64,000 nucleotides of DNA from Ensifer adhaerens (GTDB lineage: Bacteria > Pseudomonadota > Alphaproteobacteria > Rhizobiales > Rhizobiaceae). Position 1 is the stretch's first letter. Each line of letters starts with the position of its first letter. Location: NCBI RefSeq assembly GCF_028993555.1, contig NZ_CP118610.1, forward strand, positions 1,116,001-1,180,000. The letters are read 5' to 3'. The translations under genes were made by a program, and so were the position numbers. Below are positions 3,444 through 10,978 of this stretch, piece after piece. The notes below the pieces were generated by a model. It had not been told where the DNA came from. It saw nothing but the letters and a program-made list of their open reading frames with translations, and did no database searches.

Positions 3444-3841
3444 TGGGCAAGCTCAGAGAGGCGGCCGGCCGAATGGTCGACCAGATGGAAGCTCATAGTG
3501 GCGGCGATCGCCGTCGTGAGGCTGCGAAGGCGCGGCTTCAGCACCATGCCGCAGAGGCCGAGGTTGCGCGTGAGGAACTGCGCCGATCAACGCAGCCCTT
3601 TCTTACCGGTGACCTGGTCGAGCTGAAGTCCGGCGGCTTTCAGATGATGGTCGAGGGCGTCGATCAGCGCTGCGGCGAGGATTATTGGACCGTCCACCTC
3701 GTCTGGAACACGTTCATCGACCGCGCTGAAATCTCCCGCGACAGCTTGCCGTCGAGCTGCCTGCAACTGGTGCCGATCGTCGATGGTCGGTTCCGTCCGA
3801 CGCGCAGCAGTCGTGACCTGGACACCGATATCCCGTTCTGA
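3443..3841 (+). CDS. YodC-like (DUF2158) phage protein
   Basis: A 132-residue protein. Residues about 1-50 form a charged helix rich in Glu, Arg and Ala. The rest matches the YodC/DUF2158 pattern: a GDLVELKSGG turn, a beta strand MMVEGV, then HLVWN and a final SLPSSCLQLV. YodC proteins are small, probably beta-barrel proteins of unknown function that are common in prophages. The start ATG 3443 overlaps the upstream stop (ATGA); an in-frame GTG at 3425 is less likely. It is followed by a hairpin and the Tad2-type gene. Confidence 0.6.
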   Translation: MGKLREAAGRMVDQMEAHSGGDRRREAAKARLQHHAAEAEVAREELRRSTQPFLTGDLVELKSGGFQMMVEGVDQRCGEDYWTVHLVWNTFIDRAEISRDSLPSSCLQLVPIVDGRFRPTRSSRDLDTDIPF

Positions 3842-3848
3842 CCATCCC

Positions 3849-3887
3849 GGCCGGCAATGGTGCCGGCCGCAACACGAGGAGAAGAGC
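3849..3887 (+). promoter_or_regulatory. Intercistronic hairpin plus strong ribosome site
   Basis: GGCCGGC (3849-3855) pairs with GCCGGCC (3862-3868) around a six-base loop, followed by ACGAGGAGAAGAGC and ATG 3888. The same arrangement recurs before ATG 4447. It may isolate translation of the following gene from its neighbour or stabilise processed mRNA (inference). Confidence 0.5.
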
Positions 3888-4403
3888 ATGAAAAACTACT
3901 ACGGCACAAAGCTTGTCACCGCCCTGGCGATGACGCGGCTTGCGTACAATGACTATCGTGGCTGGCAGCTGCCGACGGATGAGAATGGCGCCGATGAAGG
4001 CTACCTGGTCGAGTACCAGGACGGCGGCGCCGGCAATCATCCGAACCACGCTGGCTATATCTCCTGGTCTCCCAAGGCGCAATTCGACGCGGCGTATCAG
4101 CCGACTGGAGCCATGTCGTTCGGCCACGCCCTCGCTGCGCTGAAGGCCGGCGAGCGCGTTGCCCGTGCAGGTTGGAACGGCAAGGGCATGTGGCTCGCGC
4201 TCAGTGGGCCGAACGGACCGCGAGAAATCGCCTACGAAAACTTCTGGTCAAGGCACGCCAGCGAGTATGCCCGCCTGAATGGCGGATCTGCGGCCGTGTT
4301 GCCTTGCATCATCATGAAGACTGCAACCGGCGAGATCCTGATGGGCTGGCTCGCCAGCCAGACCGACATGCTCGCCGACGACTGGACGATCGTCGAGGAC
4401 TGA
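3888..4403 (+). CDS. Tad2-like DUF2829 protein, putative anti-Thoeris
   Basis: A 171-residue protein with two parts. Residues 1-75 form a module common in prophage proteins (YYGTKLVTALAMTRLAYND, then RGWQLPTDENGADEGYLVEY and GYISWSPK). Residues 76-171 are a DUF2829 domain: MSFGHALAALKAGERVARAG, WNGKGMWLAL, a central PCIIMKTATGEI, and the C-terminal hallmark WLASQTDMLADDW. DUF2829 is the Tad2 family, shown in other phages to bind and sequester cyclic ADP-ribose-type signals of the Thoeris defence and, in some members, CBASS cyclic nucleotides. Activity here is inferred from the family. The start ATG 3888 has an excellent GAGGAG site. It lies in a small accessory block with the YodC-like and Gp49-family genes. 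Confidence 0.8.
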   Translation: MKNYYGTKLVTALAMTRLAYNDYRGWQLPTDENGADEGYLVEYQDGGAGNHPNHAGYISWSPKAQFDAAYQPTGAMSFGHALAALKAGERVARAGWNGKGMWLALSGPNGPREIAYENFWSRHASEYARLNGGSAAVLPCIIMKTATGEILMGWLASQTDMLADDWTIVED

Positions 4404-4785: not shown

Positions 4786-4792
4786 CCCATGC

Positions 4793-4820
4793 CCGCGGCG
4801 CCAGACGAGGGGCGCCGCGG
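4793..4820 (+). terminator. GC-rich hairpin, possible weak terminator or attenuator
   Basis: CCGCGGCGCC (4793-4802) and GGCGCCGCGG (4811-4820) form a perfect ten-base stem with an eight-base loop, followed by TTTCC. It falls between the Gp49-family stop and the preferred start of the helicase gene. Confidence 0.45.
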
Positions 4821-4845
4821 TTTCCATTCCAGATGCGGGCTGACA

Positions 4846-6756
4846 ATGACCAGGAAAACAAAAGAACAGCGCGGCGTTGCGGCCGTGCGGGCCAAGGTGC
4901 TCGATGGGCTCGAAGATCTGGAAGAGGCAAGGGACCTTTCCGATCCGGATCCGAACAATAACCGCGACGGCATCAAGGCGGGCCAGTGGGAAGGTTTTCC
5001 CCACGGCAAGATGCCGCCGGGCTGCCCGATCACTGTGCTCGGCATGAAGGGCGAAACGGTCTATGTGATCTCGGCGACCGGCTTCCTCTATGAGGTTTCC
5101 AAGTGGGATCACCCGACGCTGGTCAAGCTCTTCTCTCCCTATGTCAACTATCTGAAGTGGGCCTGGCCGGCCTTCACCAAGGCCAAGACTGAAGAAGATG
5201 GCACTGTGATCCCGCCGAAGGTCGATCGCGTTGCGCGCGACAAGGCTGTAGAGGCCATTATCGCCGAGGCCGGCCGGCGCGGCACCTTCGACCCCTCGGA
5301 GAACGTGCGCGGCCGCGGCGGCTGGAAGAGCGGCGACAATTTCGTCTGGCACTCCGGCAAATACCTGTTCTCGACCGACATCAAGCAGGGCATCGCCGTT
5401 AAGCCCGATGTCATGCGGATGAAGCCGGGCGAGCACGAGGGCTATTTCTACGCCCAGGACAGCGACACGATGCGGCCGTGGAAGACGACGATCGAGACGC
5501 GGGACAGTCCGGCGCACGAAATCCTGCAGCATCTCAAGACGTGGAACTGGGAACGCGGCTATATCGACCCGATCTTCACGCTGGGCTGGATCTGTGACGC
5601 CTTTCTTTCCGGCGCGCTCGACCAGCGGCCGATCATCTTCGTGACTGGCGGCCCTGGTACCGGTAAATCGGCGCTGCAGCGCTATATCCGATCGCTCTAT
5701 GAGAACACGATTTTCGCGACCTCGAACACGACGGCCGCCGGCATCTATCAGACCATGGGCCACGATAGCCGGCCGATCGCCGTCGACGAATTCGAGCGCA
5801 CGGCCAATTCGCACAAGCAGACCGCCATCATCGAGATCGCGCGCCAGGCCTATTCCGGCGACAAGGGCTATCGCGGCGGCTCGGACGGCTCGTCCAGCCA
5901 GTTCGAGCTGAACAACGCCTTCATGTTCACCGCGATCCTGAAGCCGCATATGGAGCAGCAGGACAAGACGCGCATGGCGATCATGCAGCTGAACCCGCTA
6001 AGGGCCCATGGCGAGCGGCCGATCGTGAAGGACTTTTGGGGCCGGCAACTGCTTCGCCAGGTGATGGACGGTTACCACGATTTCGTGACGCGGATCCTGC
6101 CGAAGTGGCGCGAGATCCTTTCCGACGATCGTCTGCGCTTCGACAGCCGCGCGATCGACACCTACGGCACCTTGCTCGCCGGCGCCGAGTTGCTGGTGGG
6201 TGAAGTCGGCATGATTGACGGCGGGTTTCCAGCAACGAGCGACGGCAGCGGAAAAATCGATATCCACTATCTCAAGGACATCCTCGAAGTCGCCACCTCG
6301 GCCGAGCGCGCCAACCAGCTGCCGAAATGGCAGGACGTCATCGAGCGGATCCTTGGCTGCAAGCTCGACGCTTATAAGAGTGGTGAGCGCCTTACCGTGG
6401 GCGCGGTCATCGAGCAGCTTGAGGACACTGGGCGTAGTGAGTTCGATATCATCGATGCCCGCGCCCGCCTGGCGCTGCTCGGCCTCGGCATACGGGATAT
6501 CCCGAAGAACGATGAAAACAATCCCTGCGGCGGCTATGCGCTGGCGATCCCGATGAGCGACGTCAATCTGAACAAGCTCTTTGCCGATAGCGAGTTTGCG
6601 AATGGCGGCTGGACTGACGCGCTGCACCTCGGCCCGCAGGAGATCATTCCCCGCGGCCTGGCGAAGGCCATGAAGACGGTAAAGATTAACCGCGCCTCGA
6701 AGACGTGCGTGCTCGTCGACCTGCAGGCATATGACGCGTGGGTGGACCGGGAATGA
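4846..6756 (+). CDS. Phage P-loop helicase / primase-helicase-like protein
   Basis: A 636-residue protein. A Walker A motif GGPGTGKS is at about residues 268-275 and a Walker B-like PIAVDEFE at about 310-317. Between them lies a polar motif ATSNTTAAGIYQ, and after them AFMFTAILKP, a sensor-1-like strand. This resembles the superfamily 3-type or virulence-protein-E-like ATPases used by phages for replication. The 260-residue N-terminal region shows no clear primase motif. ATG 4846 was chosen because the alternative ATG 4789 would put a perfect hairpin inside the coding region and lacks a ribosome site. The gene ends by ATGA overlap with the PP-loop gene. The helicase role is an inference from the ATPase core and neighbours. 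Confidence 0.7.
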   Translation: MTRKTKEQRGVAAVRAKVLDGLEDLEEARDLSDPDPNNNRDGIKAGQWEGFPHGKMPPGCPITVLGMKGETVYVISATGFLYEVSKWDHPTLVKLFSPYVNYLKWAWPAFTKAKTEEDGTVIPPKVDRVARDKAVEAIIAEAGRRGTFDPSENVRGRGGWKSGDNFVWHSGKYLFSTDIKQGIAVKPDVMRMKPGEHEGYFYAQDSDTMRPWKTTIETRDSPAHEILQHLKTWNWERGYIDPIFTLGWICDAFLSGALDQRPIIFVTGGPGTGKSALQRYIRSLYENTIFATSNTTAAGIYQTMGHDSRPIAVDEFERTANSHKQTAIIEIARQAYSGDKGYRGGSDGSSSQFELNNAFMFTAILKPHMEQQDKTRMAIMQLNPLRAHGERPIVKDFWGRQLLRQVMDGYHDFVTRILPKWREILSDDRLRFDSRAIDTYGTLLAGAELLVGEVGMIDGGFPATSDGSGKIDIHYLKDILEVATSAERANQLPKWQDVIERILGCKLDAYKSGERLTVGAVIEQLEDTGRSEFDIIDARARLALLGLGIRDIPKNDENNPCGGYALAIPMSDVNLNKLFADSEFANGGWTDALHLGPQEIIPRGLAKAMKTVKINRASKTCVLVDLQAYDAWVDRE

Positions 6757-7484
6757 TCGAGAACCTGATCGAGCGCGGCGCGCTGTTCGTCATAAACCAC
6801 AGCGCCGGCAAAGACAGCCAGGCCATGACGATCAGGCTGCGCAAGCTGGTGCCGGCCGAGCAGATGCTCGTCATCCATGCGGATCTCGGCGAGGTCGAAT
6901 GGCGTGGCAACATCGAGCACATCAAGTCGACGATCGGCGATCTGCCGCTGATCGTTTGCCGCAATGAAAACCGGACGTTCCTCGACATGGTCGAGCAGCG
7001 CGGCATGTGGCCAAGCCCGAGCCAGCGCCAATGCACCAGCGACCAAAAGCGCAATCCCATCGAGCGTGAAATCCGCCGCTATCTGAAGGCCAAGCCCCAG
7101 TTCGGCGGCCTGGTCGTCAATTGCATGGGGATCCGCGCGGCAGAGAGCCCGGCCCGCAGCAAGCAGACACCGTTCCGCAAGGTGGATGGGAACAGCCTCG
7201 GCGGCCGCGAGTGGTATAACTGGCTACCCATCTTCGAGCTTTCAACCGAGGAGGTCTTTGCGGCGATCGCGGCGGCCGGCGAGGTGCCGCACTGGGCCTA
7301 TGCCGGCGGCATGTCGCGCCTCTCCTGCGTGTTCTGCATTATGGCGAGCCGTGCTGATCTGCGCACCGCCGCGGCGCTCAATCCCGATCTGTATCGTCGT
7401 TATGTCGAGCTGGAGAAGCGGATCGGCCACACGATGTCGATGGAGCGCCGGCCGCTGGAAGAGGTGACGGGCATCCCAGTCTGA
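6753..7484 (+). CDS. PP-loop protein of the PAPS reductase/DndC family
   Basis: A 243-residue protein with the PP-loop signature HSAGKDSQAM at about residues 16-25, which binds ATP or an adenylated substrate, followed by HADLGEVEW and later NWLPIFELSTEEVF, the usual helix of this family. A CVFC pair at residues 192-195, in SRLSCVFCIMAS, resembles the cysteine motif of PAPS reductases and DndC. Phage members are common; proposed roles include sulfur activation, DNA or tRNA modification. No DndD/E or other modification gene is seen next to it. The start ATG 6753 overlaps the helicase stop. A strong terminator follows, so it closes the left operon. Confidence 0.75.
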   Translation: MIENLIERGALFVINHSAGKDSQAMTIRLRKLVPAEQMLVIHADLGEVEWRGNIEHIKSTIGDLPLIVCRNENRTFLDMVEQRGMWPSPSQRQCTSDQKRNPIEREIRRYLKAKPQFGGLVVNCMGIRAAESPARSKQTPFRKVDGNSLGGREWYNWLPIFELSTEEVFAAIAAAGEVPHWAYAGGMSRLSCVFCIMASRADLRTAAALNPDLYRRYVELEKRIGHTMSMERRPLEEVTGIPV

Positions 7485-7511
7485 ACCCTGACCCCGCCAG
7501 CGCAACACAGC

Positions 7512-7540
7512 GGCCCGCCAGAGCGATTTGGCGGGCCTTT
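7512..7540 (+). terminator. Rho-independent terminator
   Basis: GGCCCGCC (7512-7519) pairs with GGCGGGCC (7530-7537) around a ten-base loop, followed by TTT and a pyrimidine-rich run. It ends the replication/accessory operon. Confidence 0.8.
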
Positions 7541-7585
7541 CCTTGTCTTCCCTTGCCCGCGCCCCGCTGCTAGCGTGCCGGTCGC

Positions 7586-7762
7586 ATGATTGACCTCATT
7601 TGGATAGCCGTCTTCACCGCCTTTAGCGCCGCCTGGTTCGTCGCCAGCGGCTATCTGTCCTATGCCTGGTCGAACGGCGATGAGCGCACCAGGACGCGCT
7701 TCCATGGGCTGATGCTGACCCTCTACTTCGTCGCGGCCTATCTGCTCTTCAACAATTGGTGA
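7586..7762 (+). CDS. Small two-helix membrane protein
   Basis: A 58-residue frame, ATG 7586 to TGA 7760-7762. The N-terminal stretch LIWIAVFTAFSAAWFVASGY and the C-terminal LMLTLYFVAAYLLF are both long enough to cross the membrane, separated by a charged loop SNGDERTRTRF. Third positions are G/C rich. The ribosome site is weak and no family is recognised. It stands alone between a terminator and the repeat region; it could be a lysogeny-expressed inner-membrane protein or a spurious frame. Confidence 0.45.
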   Translation: MIDLIWIAVFTAFSAAWFVASGYLSYAWSNGDERTRTRFHGLMLTLYFVAAYLLFNNW

Positions 7763-8023
7763 CCCACGCCCTGTCGCATTTGCGGCAGCGTTTCCGCCCC
7801 ATACCTCCTTCTCATTTAACTCTCTTCCCCCGCCCCGGAGGGGAGAAAAGCGGAGCCCGCGCCAGCGTTGGAGCCAGCGAGCGGCTATCGGCGACCGCTG
7901 GTCGCGTCCGCCTCGCTGGCTCGCCACGATATGTCAGCGCAAGTGAGGCGCGAGCACTTAACGCAGTCGGGGCCGTGTACAGGATGCGGGGTGGCGGTGC
8001 ATTCCGCTGCGACGGGTGCGGGT

Positions 8024-8269
8024 GGTTACCACCGGTTACCCAACGGTTACCAGAGCGGTAACCGCGATATCTCAACGAAAACAGAGGCTTGTTGTGTCGG
8101 TTACCGGGTTGGCGATGAATAGAGGCTTTTTCACGCGCGCGCGTGTGCGATACGCGTAAAGGGGAAACCGGTAACCGGGTAACCGAGATATATAAATCTC
8201 TGATTTCTTTAGAGATATGCGGTTGGCGCAACGGTTACCGGCAACGGAATTCGGCTTTGGCCGGTAACC
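8024..8269. repeat. Array of nine GGTTACC/GGTAACC sites
   Basis: Five GGTTACC (starting 8024, 8034, 8045, 8099, 8233) and four of its reverse complement GGTAACC (8057, 8170, 8178, 8263) within 246 bases. The first four are 10, 11 and 12 bases apart, about one helix turn. Between them lie a 14-base palindrome CACGCGCGCGCGTG (8132-8145) and an AT-rich patch (8186-8218) with GAGAT/ATCTC arms. The 7765-8294 interval contains no other gene. Placed between the replication operon and terminase, it is a candidate replication origin, terminase recognition site or operator cluster for a phage DNA-binding protein. Confidence 0.85.
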
Positions 8270-8294
8270 GGAATAAACAAATAGGGAAATAGCC

Positions 8295-9017
8295 GTGAGC
8301 GGTGAAAACGAGCAAAATCAGGGGCTTCGAGAGGCACACCCACCGGCCGATTTTTCCGGCGCTGGCGCCGATCGGCCCGGCCTCGACGTTGATCCGGACC
8401 GATCGGCGAAGGTCGGGGCGACGAAAGCCCTGGCGGAAGCCGCCATGACCGGCCTCGCCCAGCAGCTGGCGGCCGCCGAGCCCGAGGCCGACCAGCCATC
8501 GCTGATGTTCGACCAGGACGAGACCGCCTGTCTCTTCCGTGGCCCTGTGGCGCATGTCGCGAACATACGTGATGCCGCCAAGCGGGGTAGGGGACGGCCT
8601 CCCGGCAGCCAGAACAAGCGCTCCACCGATCTCGCGAACTACCTGCTATCCATGGGTTATCGCGATCCAGCCCTCAACCTTGCCGACCTGGCCAACGCTG
8701 ATCCTCTGGCTCTGGCGCTGGAGCTGACGGGCGTGCCGCTGGCCGATGGCGTCGAGCCTCGCGAGATGATGGCCGCAGCGATCCACGCGGGCGCGCTCAA
8801 GCGGGCGGACATGTACGAGGCGATCGTGAAGGCGCAGGCCATGATCGCCGATGCCAACGCCGAGCTGATGCCCTACTTCCATGCGAAGAAGCCGCAGGCT
8901 ATTCAGGTCGACAAGACGCTTCGCGGGTTCATGGTCTTTGGCGAGATGCCGGAGGCCGAGCAGCGCCGGGAGACGCTGGATCTCCGGCCGATCGGCAGCA
9001 GCGAAAAAGGCCAATGA
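8295..9017 (+). CDS. Putative terminase small subunit
   Basis: A 240-residue protein starting at GTG 8295 behind AGGGA. The N-terminal 85 residues are polar and probably disordered. The segment GRGRPPGSQNKRS at about residue 97 is an AT-hook-like basic patch, followed by helices (LANYLLSMGYRDPALNLADL; ADPLALALELTG) and a C-terminal helix with MPYFHAKKPQAIQV. That AT-hook plus helices arrangement, and the position immediately before the large terminase, fit a DNA-recognising small subunit in many rhizobial podoviruses. The assignment rests on position and general architecture, not on a diagnostic motif. The GGTTACC array directly upstream would be a plausible binding site. Confidence 0.6.
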   Translation: MSGENEQNQGLREAHPPADFSGAGADRPGLDVDPDRSAKVGATKALAEAAMTGLAQQLAAAEPEADQPSLMFDQDETACLFRGPVAHVANIRDAAKRGRGRPPGSQNKRSTDLANYLLSMGYRDPALNLADLANADPLALALELTGVPLADGVEPREMMAAAIHAGALKRADMYEAIVKAQAMIADANAELMPYFHAKKPQAIQVDKTLRGFMVFGEMPEAEQRRETLDLRPIGSSEKGQ

Positions 9018-9373
9018 ATTCAATGGCCCGTCATCCGACATTTAGCCGTCCGACATTTCGACCGCTAAGCCGTTGAATTTCCTAGACCGCGAATGATGCT
9101 AAATCAGTGACGGCCTTTCTGGCTCGGCCCTTTTCCCGGCGGAAAAGCGGCTGGCCTATCTCCTCGTACGCGGGCGGGCGCGCGTCGCGCGAGGCGGGGC
9201 GGCGGCCAGCGACCTTGAAACTTTGGCGGCGAGCCCCCTCCATGGGGGTCGCGGCTCACACACACGACCCTTTTGCCCATTGCCTGACTGAACCACTGGC
9301 GGCCGAACCTAACCTTCTGAGGACCGGAGGGGCGCGGGCGCGGGGCCCCGCCCAATCGCAAGGGTATCGGGTT
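9018..9373. other. 356-base gap before terminase large subunit
   Basis: No convincing gene. An in-frame extension of the terminase runs back to 9107, but its residues are unlike terminases. The stretch is very GC-rich, with a perfect palindrome GCGGGGCCCCGC at 9340-9351 and CCCC/GGGG arms around 9233-9248. It could hold a promoter, a packaging site or an mRNA leader; nothing decisive is visible. Confidence 0.4.
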
Positions 9374-10978
9374 ATGGGTTTTGACGTTCAGTTTCGGAAG
9401 CCGGCGGGGCCGGTGGCGGGCGCCTACACGCGATCGCGCGGCCCGATCGATATCATCATGGGCCCGGCCGGGTCGGGCAAAACCGTCGCCAGCTGCGAAA
9501 AGGGGCCAAGGCTAGCCGCCGAATACATGCCGGTCTGCAAGGATGGCTGGGTGCGGTTCAAGATCGCCTGCGTCCGCGATACCTATCGCGACTTCGCCCG
9601 AACGGCGCTCGCTTCCTGGTATGAGATGTTTCCGATCGGGAACCCGTTTCAGGTGAGCCACGAGGGCGGCCAGGATCGCCCAGTTAAGCACCGCATGCAG
9701 TGGGAAGCATTGCGCGGGCGAGACTTGATCAAGGTCGATTTCATGTTTGAAACCGGCGCGATCGGCGACCACAACGTCGAGCAATTCATCAAGGGTTACG
9801 AGCTTTCTGCCGGCTGGGGCAACGAAGTCGATCTGCTGGATCCGCGTGTGCCTGGTCTGATGTTTCAGCGAACCGGCCGCTATCCGCCGGTGAAGGATAT
9901 CGCCGACAGCGAGCTGCAGCGGGTGTCGCGCGAAGGGCGAGAGGCCATGCGCAAGATGGGCCTCACGGTCTCTGAGGGAGAGATCGTCCTGCCGCGCGTT
10001 TTCTTTGGCGACATGAACCCTCCGGACATCGATCATCCGATCCTCGTCGAGTGCGGTTATGGCGAGCATGCGGAGAAGAAAAACCCGGCCTACAACCTGT
10101 TTCACCAACCTGGTGGGCTTGATCCCGCGGCCGAAAATCCGGTCGGCAAGCCGCGTTCCTCCTATGAGCTTGAGGCTGCAACTCAGCCCGAACACATCGT
10201 CCGGCGAATGGTCCACGGGCTGCCTGGTTATGCGCAGGACGGCAAGCCGGTTTATCCGGAGTTCAACCAGCGGGTCCATGTGTCGCAGCAGAACATCGAG
10301 CCGACGCAGGGCCTCGGCCTCACGGTCGGCATCGACGCCGGCGGCTCACCGGCCGCGACGATCGGGCAGCCGCAGCCGAACGGACAGGATCGTCTGCTCG
10401 CCGAGCTCGTCACCGAACCGGGCACCGGCCCTTCGCGGTTCGGCTCGATGCTGATCGAGCTGCTGCTGCAGCGCTTCCCGGGCCTGCCAATCCTCGGCGT
10501 ATGGGCGGACCCGGCGGCCTTCATGGGCGGCGATACAGCCACCGGCGAATTCAACTGGGTGATGACGGTGCAGGGTATCGTCCGCATGCCGATCATGCCG
10601 GCGCCCTCGAACGAACCCGGGATCCGCCAGGAGGCGGTGCGCTGGGGGCTCACGGGCATGATCGACGGCCTGGTGCCGCGCTACCTGATCGATCCTCGCT
10701 GCAAGAAAATGGTTGGCGGCTTTGCGGCGCACTACAAGCTCACGAAGCTCGCCAGCGCCGGCGGTACTGACAAGCTTGCCGTCGTCAAGAACGAGTATTC
10801 GCACCCTCACGACGCCGAGCAGTATCGCGTGCTCGGCTATCGCGGCCTGGCGAACGTAATTTCGAGCGCAGCCCGATCGGCCCTGCCTGGCAATGTCATG
10901 AGCCTGCAGGAACAGCGCCAGCGCCGTGAGGCCGAGGCGCGGCCGCGGCCGGGTGATTTCAGCGTATGGGACGTCTGA
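9374..10978 (+). CDS. Terminase large subunit
   Basis: A 534-residue packaging motor. The ATPase domain begins with a Walker A motif GPAGSGKT at residues 30-37; a candidate Walker B region is GWGNEVDLLD around residue 150. The nuclease domain starts near residue 318 with TVGIDAGGSPAA, where Asp321 is the likely first catalytic acid, and later ADPAAF supplies a further aspartate. The protein pumps DNA into the prohead and cuts concatemers. ATG 9374 was chosen because it gives the usual short lead before Walker A and has AAGGG upstream. The final bases overlap the next gene at 10966. Confidence 0.9.
   Translation: MGFDVQFRKPAGPVAGAYTRSRGPIDIIMGPAGSGKTVASCEKGPRLAAEYMPVCKDGWVRFKIACVRDTYRDFARTALASWYEMFPIGNPFQVSHEGGQDRPVKHRMQWEALRGRDLIKVDFMFETGAIGDHNVEQFIKGYELSAGWGNEVDLLDPRVPGLMFQRTGRYPPVKDIADSELQRVSREGREAMRKMGLTVSEGEIVLPRVFFGDMNPPDIDHPILVECGYGEHAEKKNPAYNLFHQPGGLDPAAENPVGKPRSSYELEAATQPEHIVRRMVHGLPGYAQDGKPVYPEFNQRVHVSQQNIEPTQGLGLTVGIDAGGSPAATIGQPQPNGQDRLLAELVTEPGTGPSRFGSMLIELLLQRFPGLPILGVWADPAAFMGGDTATGEFNWVMTVQGIVRMPIMPAPSNEPGIRQEAVRWGLTGMIDGLVPRYLIDPRCKKMVGGFAAHYKLTKLASAGGTDKLAVVKNEYSHPHDAEQYRVLGYRGLANVISSAARSALPGNVMSLQEQRQRREAEARPRPGDFSVWDV

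Follow-up and report, generated by a model that had tools for sequence, protein, structure and literature searches.

In phage-inducible chromosomal islands (PICIs) and Staphylococcus aureus pathogenicity islands (SaPIs), the origin lies immediately 3' of the Rep helicase gene and consists of short iteron sets with an AT-rich region; Rep reads the iterons via its C-terminal domain, and the small terminase gene can sit further downstream (PMC6092414, PMC7581432). The second of these reports also describes a putative iteron origin downstream of cch2 in the staphylococcal cassette chromosome mec (SCCmec), bound by the C-terminal domain of Cch2 (PMC7581432). Cch is a relative of SaPI Rep, a kind of protein with iteron origins downstream of its own gene. 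In a Vibrio PICI-like element (PLE), the origin and the DNA-binding domain of the initiator RepA change together and function as one module (PMC8263062). Here we analyze a prophage of Ensifer adhaerens (contig NZ_CP118610.1, positions 1,116,001 to 1,180,000; this 64,000-nucleotide stretch is referred to as the window, and positions count from its first letter) in which an array of the word GGTTACC at 8024-8269 follows a helicase gene. We consider it probable, judging from sequence evidence, that the array is the replication origin of the prophage and is read by the helicase itself, as a PICI-like rep-ori module in full phages. The observations behind this reading are the layout and how it recurs, the association of the array with the helicase, a Cch-like fold, and covariation.

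Like the PICI and SaPI modules, the module in the window encodes a Rep/Cch-type AAA+ helicase and has its array 3' of the helicase gene, although in the window other genes intervene. An AT-rich stretch is found here as well, mostly between blocks B' and A', but the sites form four blocks (A, B, B', and A') with an additional GC-rich centre. The word covaries with a C-terminal hairpin residue, K632, which may reflect reading through the C-terminal domain. By VIA-align the helicase model is closest to SCCmec Cch (5dgk); the putative Cch2 origin differs in that three iterons only were found in it and in belonging to a staphylococcal cassette, not a phage (PMC7581432). The Vibrio PLE resembles this locus in the covariation of initiator and origin as a module and differs in its RepA_N initiator, its three semi-palindromic iterons of ~30 bp, and its nature as a satellite element (PMC8263062). 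Unlike in PICIs and SaPIs, the array here occurs in full phages that encode a large terminase and connector themselves, and it has ~12 sites, a four-block inverted layout, a central alternating tract, and an off-centre AT-rich stretch. A large terminase and a head-tail connector follow the array, which does not fit a satellite dependent on the structural genes of a helper. Phage P4 alpha/ori and lambda O/ori also pair a phage-encoded initiator with iterons beside an AT-rich region; their initiators are of other kinds, and we know of no such four-block layout or central tract in them. A search of the full-text literature, covering titles and the starts of abstracts and with subscription papers largely outside it, returned no description of arrays of such layout in these phages. 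Most likely, this is a known replicon kind (PICI/SaPI-Cch) in a new setting, full temperate phages, with a strict layout that we did not find described.

The repeat array in the window

The initial annotation of this sequence had listed nine exact GGTTACC/GGTAACC copies in 8024-8269, and an exact match search recovered all of them, five on the + strand (starts 8024, 8034, 8045, 8099, and 8233) and four on the - strand (8057, 8170, 8178, and 8263); the mapped starts reproduce the first spacings of 10, 11, and 12 bases. The window holds 14 GGTTACC matches vs 1.90 expected (100 dinucleotide-preserving shuffles, largest 6), an expectation that pro rata for 246 bp is ~0.007 copies. Three degenerate copies beyond the annotated ones complete the layout (GGTTGGC at 8107-8113, GGAAACC at 8163-8169, and CGGTTGGC at 8220-8227), bringing the total to ~12 sites. 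The copy at 8163 was also scored by the motif finder, and those at 8107 and 8220 were placed by alignment to sites scored in a close relative, L011 (IMG/VR; helicase 85% identical to that of the window). A search of relatives for the same array at the same place, proposed in the annotation, found it in L011 with six exact copies. The annotated AT-rich patch is real, and the palindrome (CACGCGCGCGCGTG at 8132-8145) was confirmed and lies within an alternating purine-pyrimidine run. The features of the array and the module are as follows.

8024-8063, unstranded: block A, sites 8024+, 8034+, 8045+, and 8057-
8064-8098, unstranded: A-B spacer, its core A-rich and CAACGAAAACA / ATCAAGGAAATCA-like
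8099-8113, + strand: block B, exact copy at 8099-8105 and degenerate copy at 8107-8113
8132-8149, unstranded: central alternating purine-pyrimidine tract CACGCGCGCGCGTGTGCG, 18 bases
8163-8184, - strand: block B', inverted relative to B, degenerate copy at 8163-8169, exact copies at 8170-8176 and 8178-8184
8186-8218, unstranded: AT-rich stretch between B' and A', 33 bases, 79% A+T, candidate unwinding element
8220-8269, unstranded: block A', degenerate copy at 8220-8227, exact copies at 8233+ and 8263-
307-1428, + strand: Toprim/DUF7146 primase of the same module (PF13362, PF23639)
4789-6756, + strand: Cch-like AAA+ helicase, proposed array-reading initiator
6673-6705, + strand: C-terminal beta-hairpin of the helicase (model), codons 629-639, holding K632, T630, K629, S637, and T639

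The putative origin module most likely comprises the primase (307-1428), the Cch-like helicase (4789-6756), and the array (8024-8269).

Recurrence of the layout in related phages

With the window helicase as query, matches were found in 19 of the 297 family genomes (E ≤ 1e-3) and, at E ≤ 1e-40, in 23 of 397 genomes at order level and 7 of 385 at class level, the source genome being counted each time. The first set comprised 54 helicase-bearing loci, 43 of which have a homologous small terminase; the usual gene order is two-HTH (helix-turn-helix) protein, Toprim primase, helicase, array, small terminase, large terminase, and connector. A motif finder placed an array-like set before the small terminase in 42 loci. 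Because this finder yields something anywhere, scores were compared with those of 12 control windows per locus: 38 of the 42 arrays outscore all of their own controls, and 6 of 504 controls reach the score of their array. The arrays that do not beat all controls are those of L011, L040, L089, and L107; the first three still show the layout, and L107 was excluded from the block-distance analysis and the 88-locus set described below. In L051 (gut phage MT835534), six copies of CAGAACC follow the helicase, and the finder picked another word before the small terminase; this locus was set aside from the 42 loci and excluded from the whole-protein correlation, tract, distance, and control-window analyses and from the 88-locus set.

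The words vary among lineages and include GGTTACC, GGTTACA, GGTTGAA, GGTTAGA, GTTGCC, GGGTACAC, GGGGACAC, TGGAACA, GTGAGACA, AGACAC, ACCTAACG, GGGACAC, and TAGACAC, with more beyond these. The finder ignores orientation; with block B oriented by its own majority, inversion of B' relative to B is seen in 39 of 41 loci and holds for 107 of the 109 B' sites (L051 and L107 excluded). Median distances in these 41 loci are 58 bp for B-B', 42 for A-B, and 46 for B'-A'.

A detector was then built that requires an alternating tract of at least 11 bases, a 7-mer on its left, the reverse complement on its right, and at least five exact copies in 300 bp. Of 80 IMG/VR loci, 60 give a detection 3' of the helicase; the 80 upstream stretches (median length 7.95 kb, with two empty and nine <3 kb) give none, nor do the 80 loci after block shuffling. 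The remaining 20 have fewer than five exact copies, and ~15 of those show a plausible word (mismatch-tolerant finder, by eye). In 45 more loci, 42 of them on GTDB contigs that include Rhizobium, Mesorhizobium, Stappia, Aurantimonas, Aureimonas, and Aminobacter, the detector fires in 29 and never upstream, where one locus has four copies; these sets overlap the first set. The array of L118 was found by the detector and had been missed by a simple 7-mer scan. After removal of helicases >92% identical, and with four-copy rows included, 88 loci remained. These yield 66 raw consensus 9-mers, some being the same word in another register, and merging registers leaves 17 (shared 6-mer) to 29 (shared 7-mer) word groups. 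Most examined phages and prophages encoding relatives of the window helicase carry an array of the same layout downstream of the helicase gene. GTGACA repeats also follow a related helicase in an AT-rich genome from another part of the phylum (L240:9745-10136); the arrangement is looser, with B-B' at 138 bp, the detector is silent, and L240 and L241 are uncounted. Searches for related loci with the terminase as query gave no match, nor did searches with the L116 or L111 helicases.

Central tract and AT-rich stretch

The tract between B and B' is 12-32 bp long (median 22), has a median relative position of 0.51, and ranks first in length among all alternating purine-pyrimidine runs of its locus in 35 of 42 cases and within the first three in 41. 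In the 88 loci, alternation is 0.91 of steps at the centre vs 0.49 far away; the ranking in 42 loci is the fairer statistic, because the centre is itself defined by the run. The sequence of the centre varies, from CACGCGCGCGCGTGTGCG in the window to CACATACACATGCGCATACGCACATACATG in L043 and GTGTGCGCATGCGTGTG in L114, and alternation, rather than a fixed sequence, is what the centre keeps. Alternating purine-pyrimidine tracts are prone to form Z-DNA. The AT-richest 35 bp have a median relative position of 0.775 and lie between B' and A', with a few exceptions (42 loci). Iterons around an unwinding element, as the initial annotation had suggested, are thus supported by the recurrence of the layout across lineages and by the AT-rich stretch lying mostly between B' and A'.

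Covariation of the word with the helicase

The word apparently changes in step with the tip of the helicase that would read it. Hairpin residue K632 has the top covariation with the word, exceeding all 600 permutations. GGTTACC occurs mostly with a KVKINGSxxHC or KTVKINRxxKT hairpin (exceptions L168, L040, and L282), GGTTGAA with HNxKINGSTKWC (2/2), GGTTAGG mostly with xHTxKI...AKFC (L170 and L251 differ), and GGTAGAC with VKINRxxQ. Likewise, GGGACAC is found mostly with NKxKIGGxSRR (exception L226), TAGACAC mostly with T at 632 (V in L106), and TGGAACA with ARIxGxKKRGTAF in L044, L221, and L274. Correlation between whole proteins and the word in 35 loci, a measure that cannot separate linked genes, is 0.592 for the helicase, 0.551 for the large terminase, 0.546 for the Toprim primase, 0.484 for the two-HTH protein, 0.389 for the small terminase, and 0.325 for the DnaA-domain-IV part of the two-HTH protein alone; a windowed version in the same loci gave no clear domain. 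The small terminase and HTH protein had been put forward as binders in the initial annotation: both covary more weakly than the helicase hairpin, the small terminase through one borderline column, and the HTH protein is retained as a candidate.

Proposed mechanism and its weaknesses

From such data we infer binding, two hexamers, unwinding, and replication as follows. Helicase subunits would bind the iterons via the beta-hairpin of the C-terminal domain. Two hexamers would sit head to head on the oppositely oriented blocks B and B', which are ~58 bp from each other with the alternating tract in the middle; A and A' would act as outer anchors. Supercoil stress absorbed at the centre would aid opening of the AT-rich stretch between B' and A', upon which the helicases would load and the Toprim primase would start synthesis. 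No phage DNA polymerase was found among the proteins scanned, which are part of the prophage genes, and a host polymerase is therefore presumed. A bolder version, which we put forward only tentatively and with considerable doubt, is a phage-origin family with a fixed layout and a free word. Here, the Cch-like helicase would re-evolve the word through one C-terminal hairpin with twelve sites following in concert, and the Z-DNA-forming tract, selected as a physical property, would be a supercoil sensor between head-to-head hexamers that triggers opening, possibly coupling initiation to late transcription of the terminase operon. The 88 loci (helicases <92% identical; 17-29 word groups) form a natural series of one candidate origin layout with many words, which makes origin-DNA reading by Cch/MCM-like helicases directly testable. 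A centre that alternates without a fixed sequence likewise makes the role of Z-prone DNA in bacterial replication initiation testable, and a PICI-like rep-ori module in full temperate phages would bear on the source of the modules of satellites.

Several observations weigh against an origin read by the helicase. Pfam finds no DUF927 in eight helicases, with weak AAA matches only, and the top Foldseek matches are the NrS-1, African swine fever virus PrimPol, and SaPI5 Rep helicases, Cch not being among the 50 matches listed. Helicase residues T630, S240, and K629 (0.20-0.22) fall below the neighbour-swap 95% level (0.265). Connector residue T364 (0.29) beats its 60 full permutations and stays under its neighbour-swap level of 0.344; small terminase residue R123 (0.20) is above 60/60 full permutations (maximum 0.198) and at its neighbour-swap 95% level (0.198). 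The correspondence between word and hairpin is not one-to-one: the GGTTGGC loci (L156, L157, and L166) have nearly the GGTTACC hairpin of the window, so other residues must matter too. The detector demands inversion, which makes orientation counts in the 88-locus set partly circular, and the constancy of the helicase is ascertainment, since all loci were found through it. Six divergent helicase loci have no array by the detector (L046, L048, L049, L112, L115, and L117). The reverse control consists of three large-terminase relatives that lack the helicase (L150-L152); these show no array but are distant, truncated loci. GC skew is unchanged across the array (right > left in 38 of 82 loci). Finally, in the main clade (60 IMG/VR loci) a median of 24 bp separates the end of the array, its extent being set at -140 to +130 around the centre, from the start of the small terminase gene; such a spacing would suit a packaging site, and this tight linkage is unexplained unless the array also serves late transcription, which the A-rich element next to A' would fit. 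The small terminase column and the missing DUF927 match slightly lower our confidence in the helicase-read origin, and L118 and L047 (below) added support for it.

Alternative explanations

One alternative is an origin at which the two-HTH protein, whose gene directly precedes that of the primase, reads the iterons and the helicase is recruited secondarily; this strikes us as unlikely, although likelier than the other alternatives. The N-terminal HTH of this protein is XRE-like, and its C-terminal half is modelled as DnaA domain IV, matching the structure on DnaA-box DNA (1j1v, template modelling score 0.80; 3pvp, 0.75; both by target length; whole-model E-values are weak, best 4.3e-3); in L043 the two HTH parts are on separate frames. 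Its profile matches 64 of 80 IMG/VR loci, an upper bound as short XRE proteins match too, and the words are short, asymmetric, arrayed, and DnaA-box-like. Given the helicase, the word keeps a partial correlation of 0.17 with the whole two-HTH protein (reached by 2/2000 permutations), as it also does with the Toprim primase (0.178; 7/2000) and the large terminase (0.149; 18/2000). However, no column of the two-HTH protein rises above the null (top 0.18; 95% levels 0.214 and 0.223), and the DnaA-IV-like domain was undetected in the examined stretches of the array-bearing L109, L110, and L114. Covariation does not single out this protein, which may be a rival or second binder that assists initiation or reads part of the array.

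The proximity of the small terminase gene suggests two further readings. The array might be a packaging site (cos or pac) with the GC-rich central palindrome as the cut and the flanking repeats as small-terminase sites, in the manner of lambda cosB or P1 pac, which we regard as improbable. In favour of it, main-clade arrays directly adjoin the small terminase gene, the centre is GC-rich and near-palindromic, R123 is borderline in covariation, and in L088 the array is still beside the small terminase though the helicase is >6 kb off (helicase end 9827, array from 16321). In the 60 IMG/VR loci, the distance from helicase end to array has a median of 886 bp (10th percentile 211 bp; 10th-90th 0.2-2.6 kb), and inserted genes vary there, whereas the interval from array to small terminase does not vary in this way (90th percentile 59 bp). 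Examples of such inserts are 6738-8023 in the window and 9827-16321 in L088 (oriented). Adjacency to the small terminase gene is not found in all carriers, however. Five divergent helicase loci keep the layout with no homologous small terminase adjoining: L111 (12 copies, starting 2 bp after the helicase), L116 (12 GGTTAC sites), L118 (5 copies, ~130 bp after the helicase), L119 (8 copies, 5 kb from the helicase), and L047 (8 copies). In L111 and L116 another gene follows the array, and a phrog_57-type small terminase, of another family, lies ~2 kb downstream; the loci L118, L119, and L047 contain no homologous small terminase at all. These loci argue against the packaging site proposed in the initial annotation, as do the stronger covariation of the word with the helicase hairpin than with the small terminase and the AT-rich stretch retained mostly on one side of the centre. 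Adjacency to the small terminase gene had at first made a packaging site the favoured reading; L111 and L116, and then L118, L119, and L047, led to its rejection. The other reading, a transcriptional operator array of the late operon with no origin function, is very unlikely. The array is directly 5' of the small terminase gene, from which a common A-rich element separates it, but a ~250-bp dyad layout with an alternating centre and AT-rich stretch exceeds the needs of an operator and persists where downstream genes differ. An operator of the repressor type, also raised in the annotation, is not favoured either: the sites are asymmetric, whereas a CI-type operator would be expected to have palindromic ones, and a separate palindromic set exists elsewhere. 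Placed right beside the small terminase gene, an origin might in addition link replication with late transcription. A AATAAAATATT-like element between A' and the small terminase occurs in 38 of 88 loci within 2 mismatches vs 0.8 expected (shuffles) and could be a late-promoter -10 overlapping block A'.

Gene neighbourhood

The genome of the window is 7.77 Mb, and its prophage is locus L050. The closest named relatives of its helicase are from Sinorhizobium/Ensifer, and INPHARED holds no near-identical phage DNA. Besides the genes of the module, the following features were identified.

1-316 (whole gene: window -94 to 316), + strand: 3' portion of the gene for a second HTH protein resembling DnaA domain IV, arranged in tandem with the main two-HTH gene
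L050:19316-19909, just upstream of the window: main two-HTH protein, 197 aa, directly before the primase
1680-2030: GapR-like DNA-binding protein (PF10073)
3783-4403: protein whose C-terminal domain is Tad2-like (Thoeris anti-defence, PF11195)
6738-7484, + strand: PAPS-reductase-like gene between helicase and array
8271-8285, + strand: A-rich element between A' and the small terminase start, counterpart of the AATAAAATATT-like element common in relatives
8295-9017, + strand: small-terminase-like gene, named by its position before the large terminase
9107-10978, + strand: large terminase, 30% identical to BcepC6B TerL

The small-terminase-like protein has no family match above the cut-off (AT_hook E 0.23), and the large terminase has no Pfam or PHROG match. 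A PF12236 head-tail connector is also encoded in the prophage.

Four perfect GGAGCGCTCC palindromes, 35 bp apart, lie at L050:16730-16844, ~3.2 kb upstream of the window start, and are probably repressor operators. Dense palindromic words occur upstream of the primase in relatives as well (GGAACGTTCC in L011, CCGGACG/GTCCGGA in L038). A DUF6551 protein, ParB-like by eye, is encoded by a separate gene directly before that of the two-HTH protein (frame L050:17814-19268). Near the L119 array, a ParB-like protein is fused to a DnaA C-terminal domain (PF08299; L119:641-1846, - strand), which, together with the separate DUF6551 gene beside the two-HTH gene in the prophage of the window, suggests that the pair cooperates.
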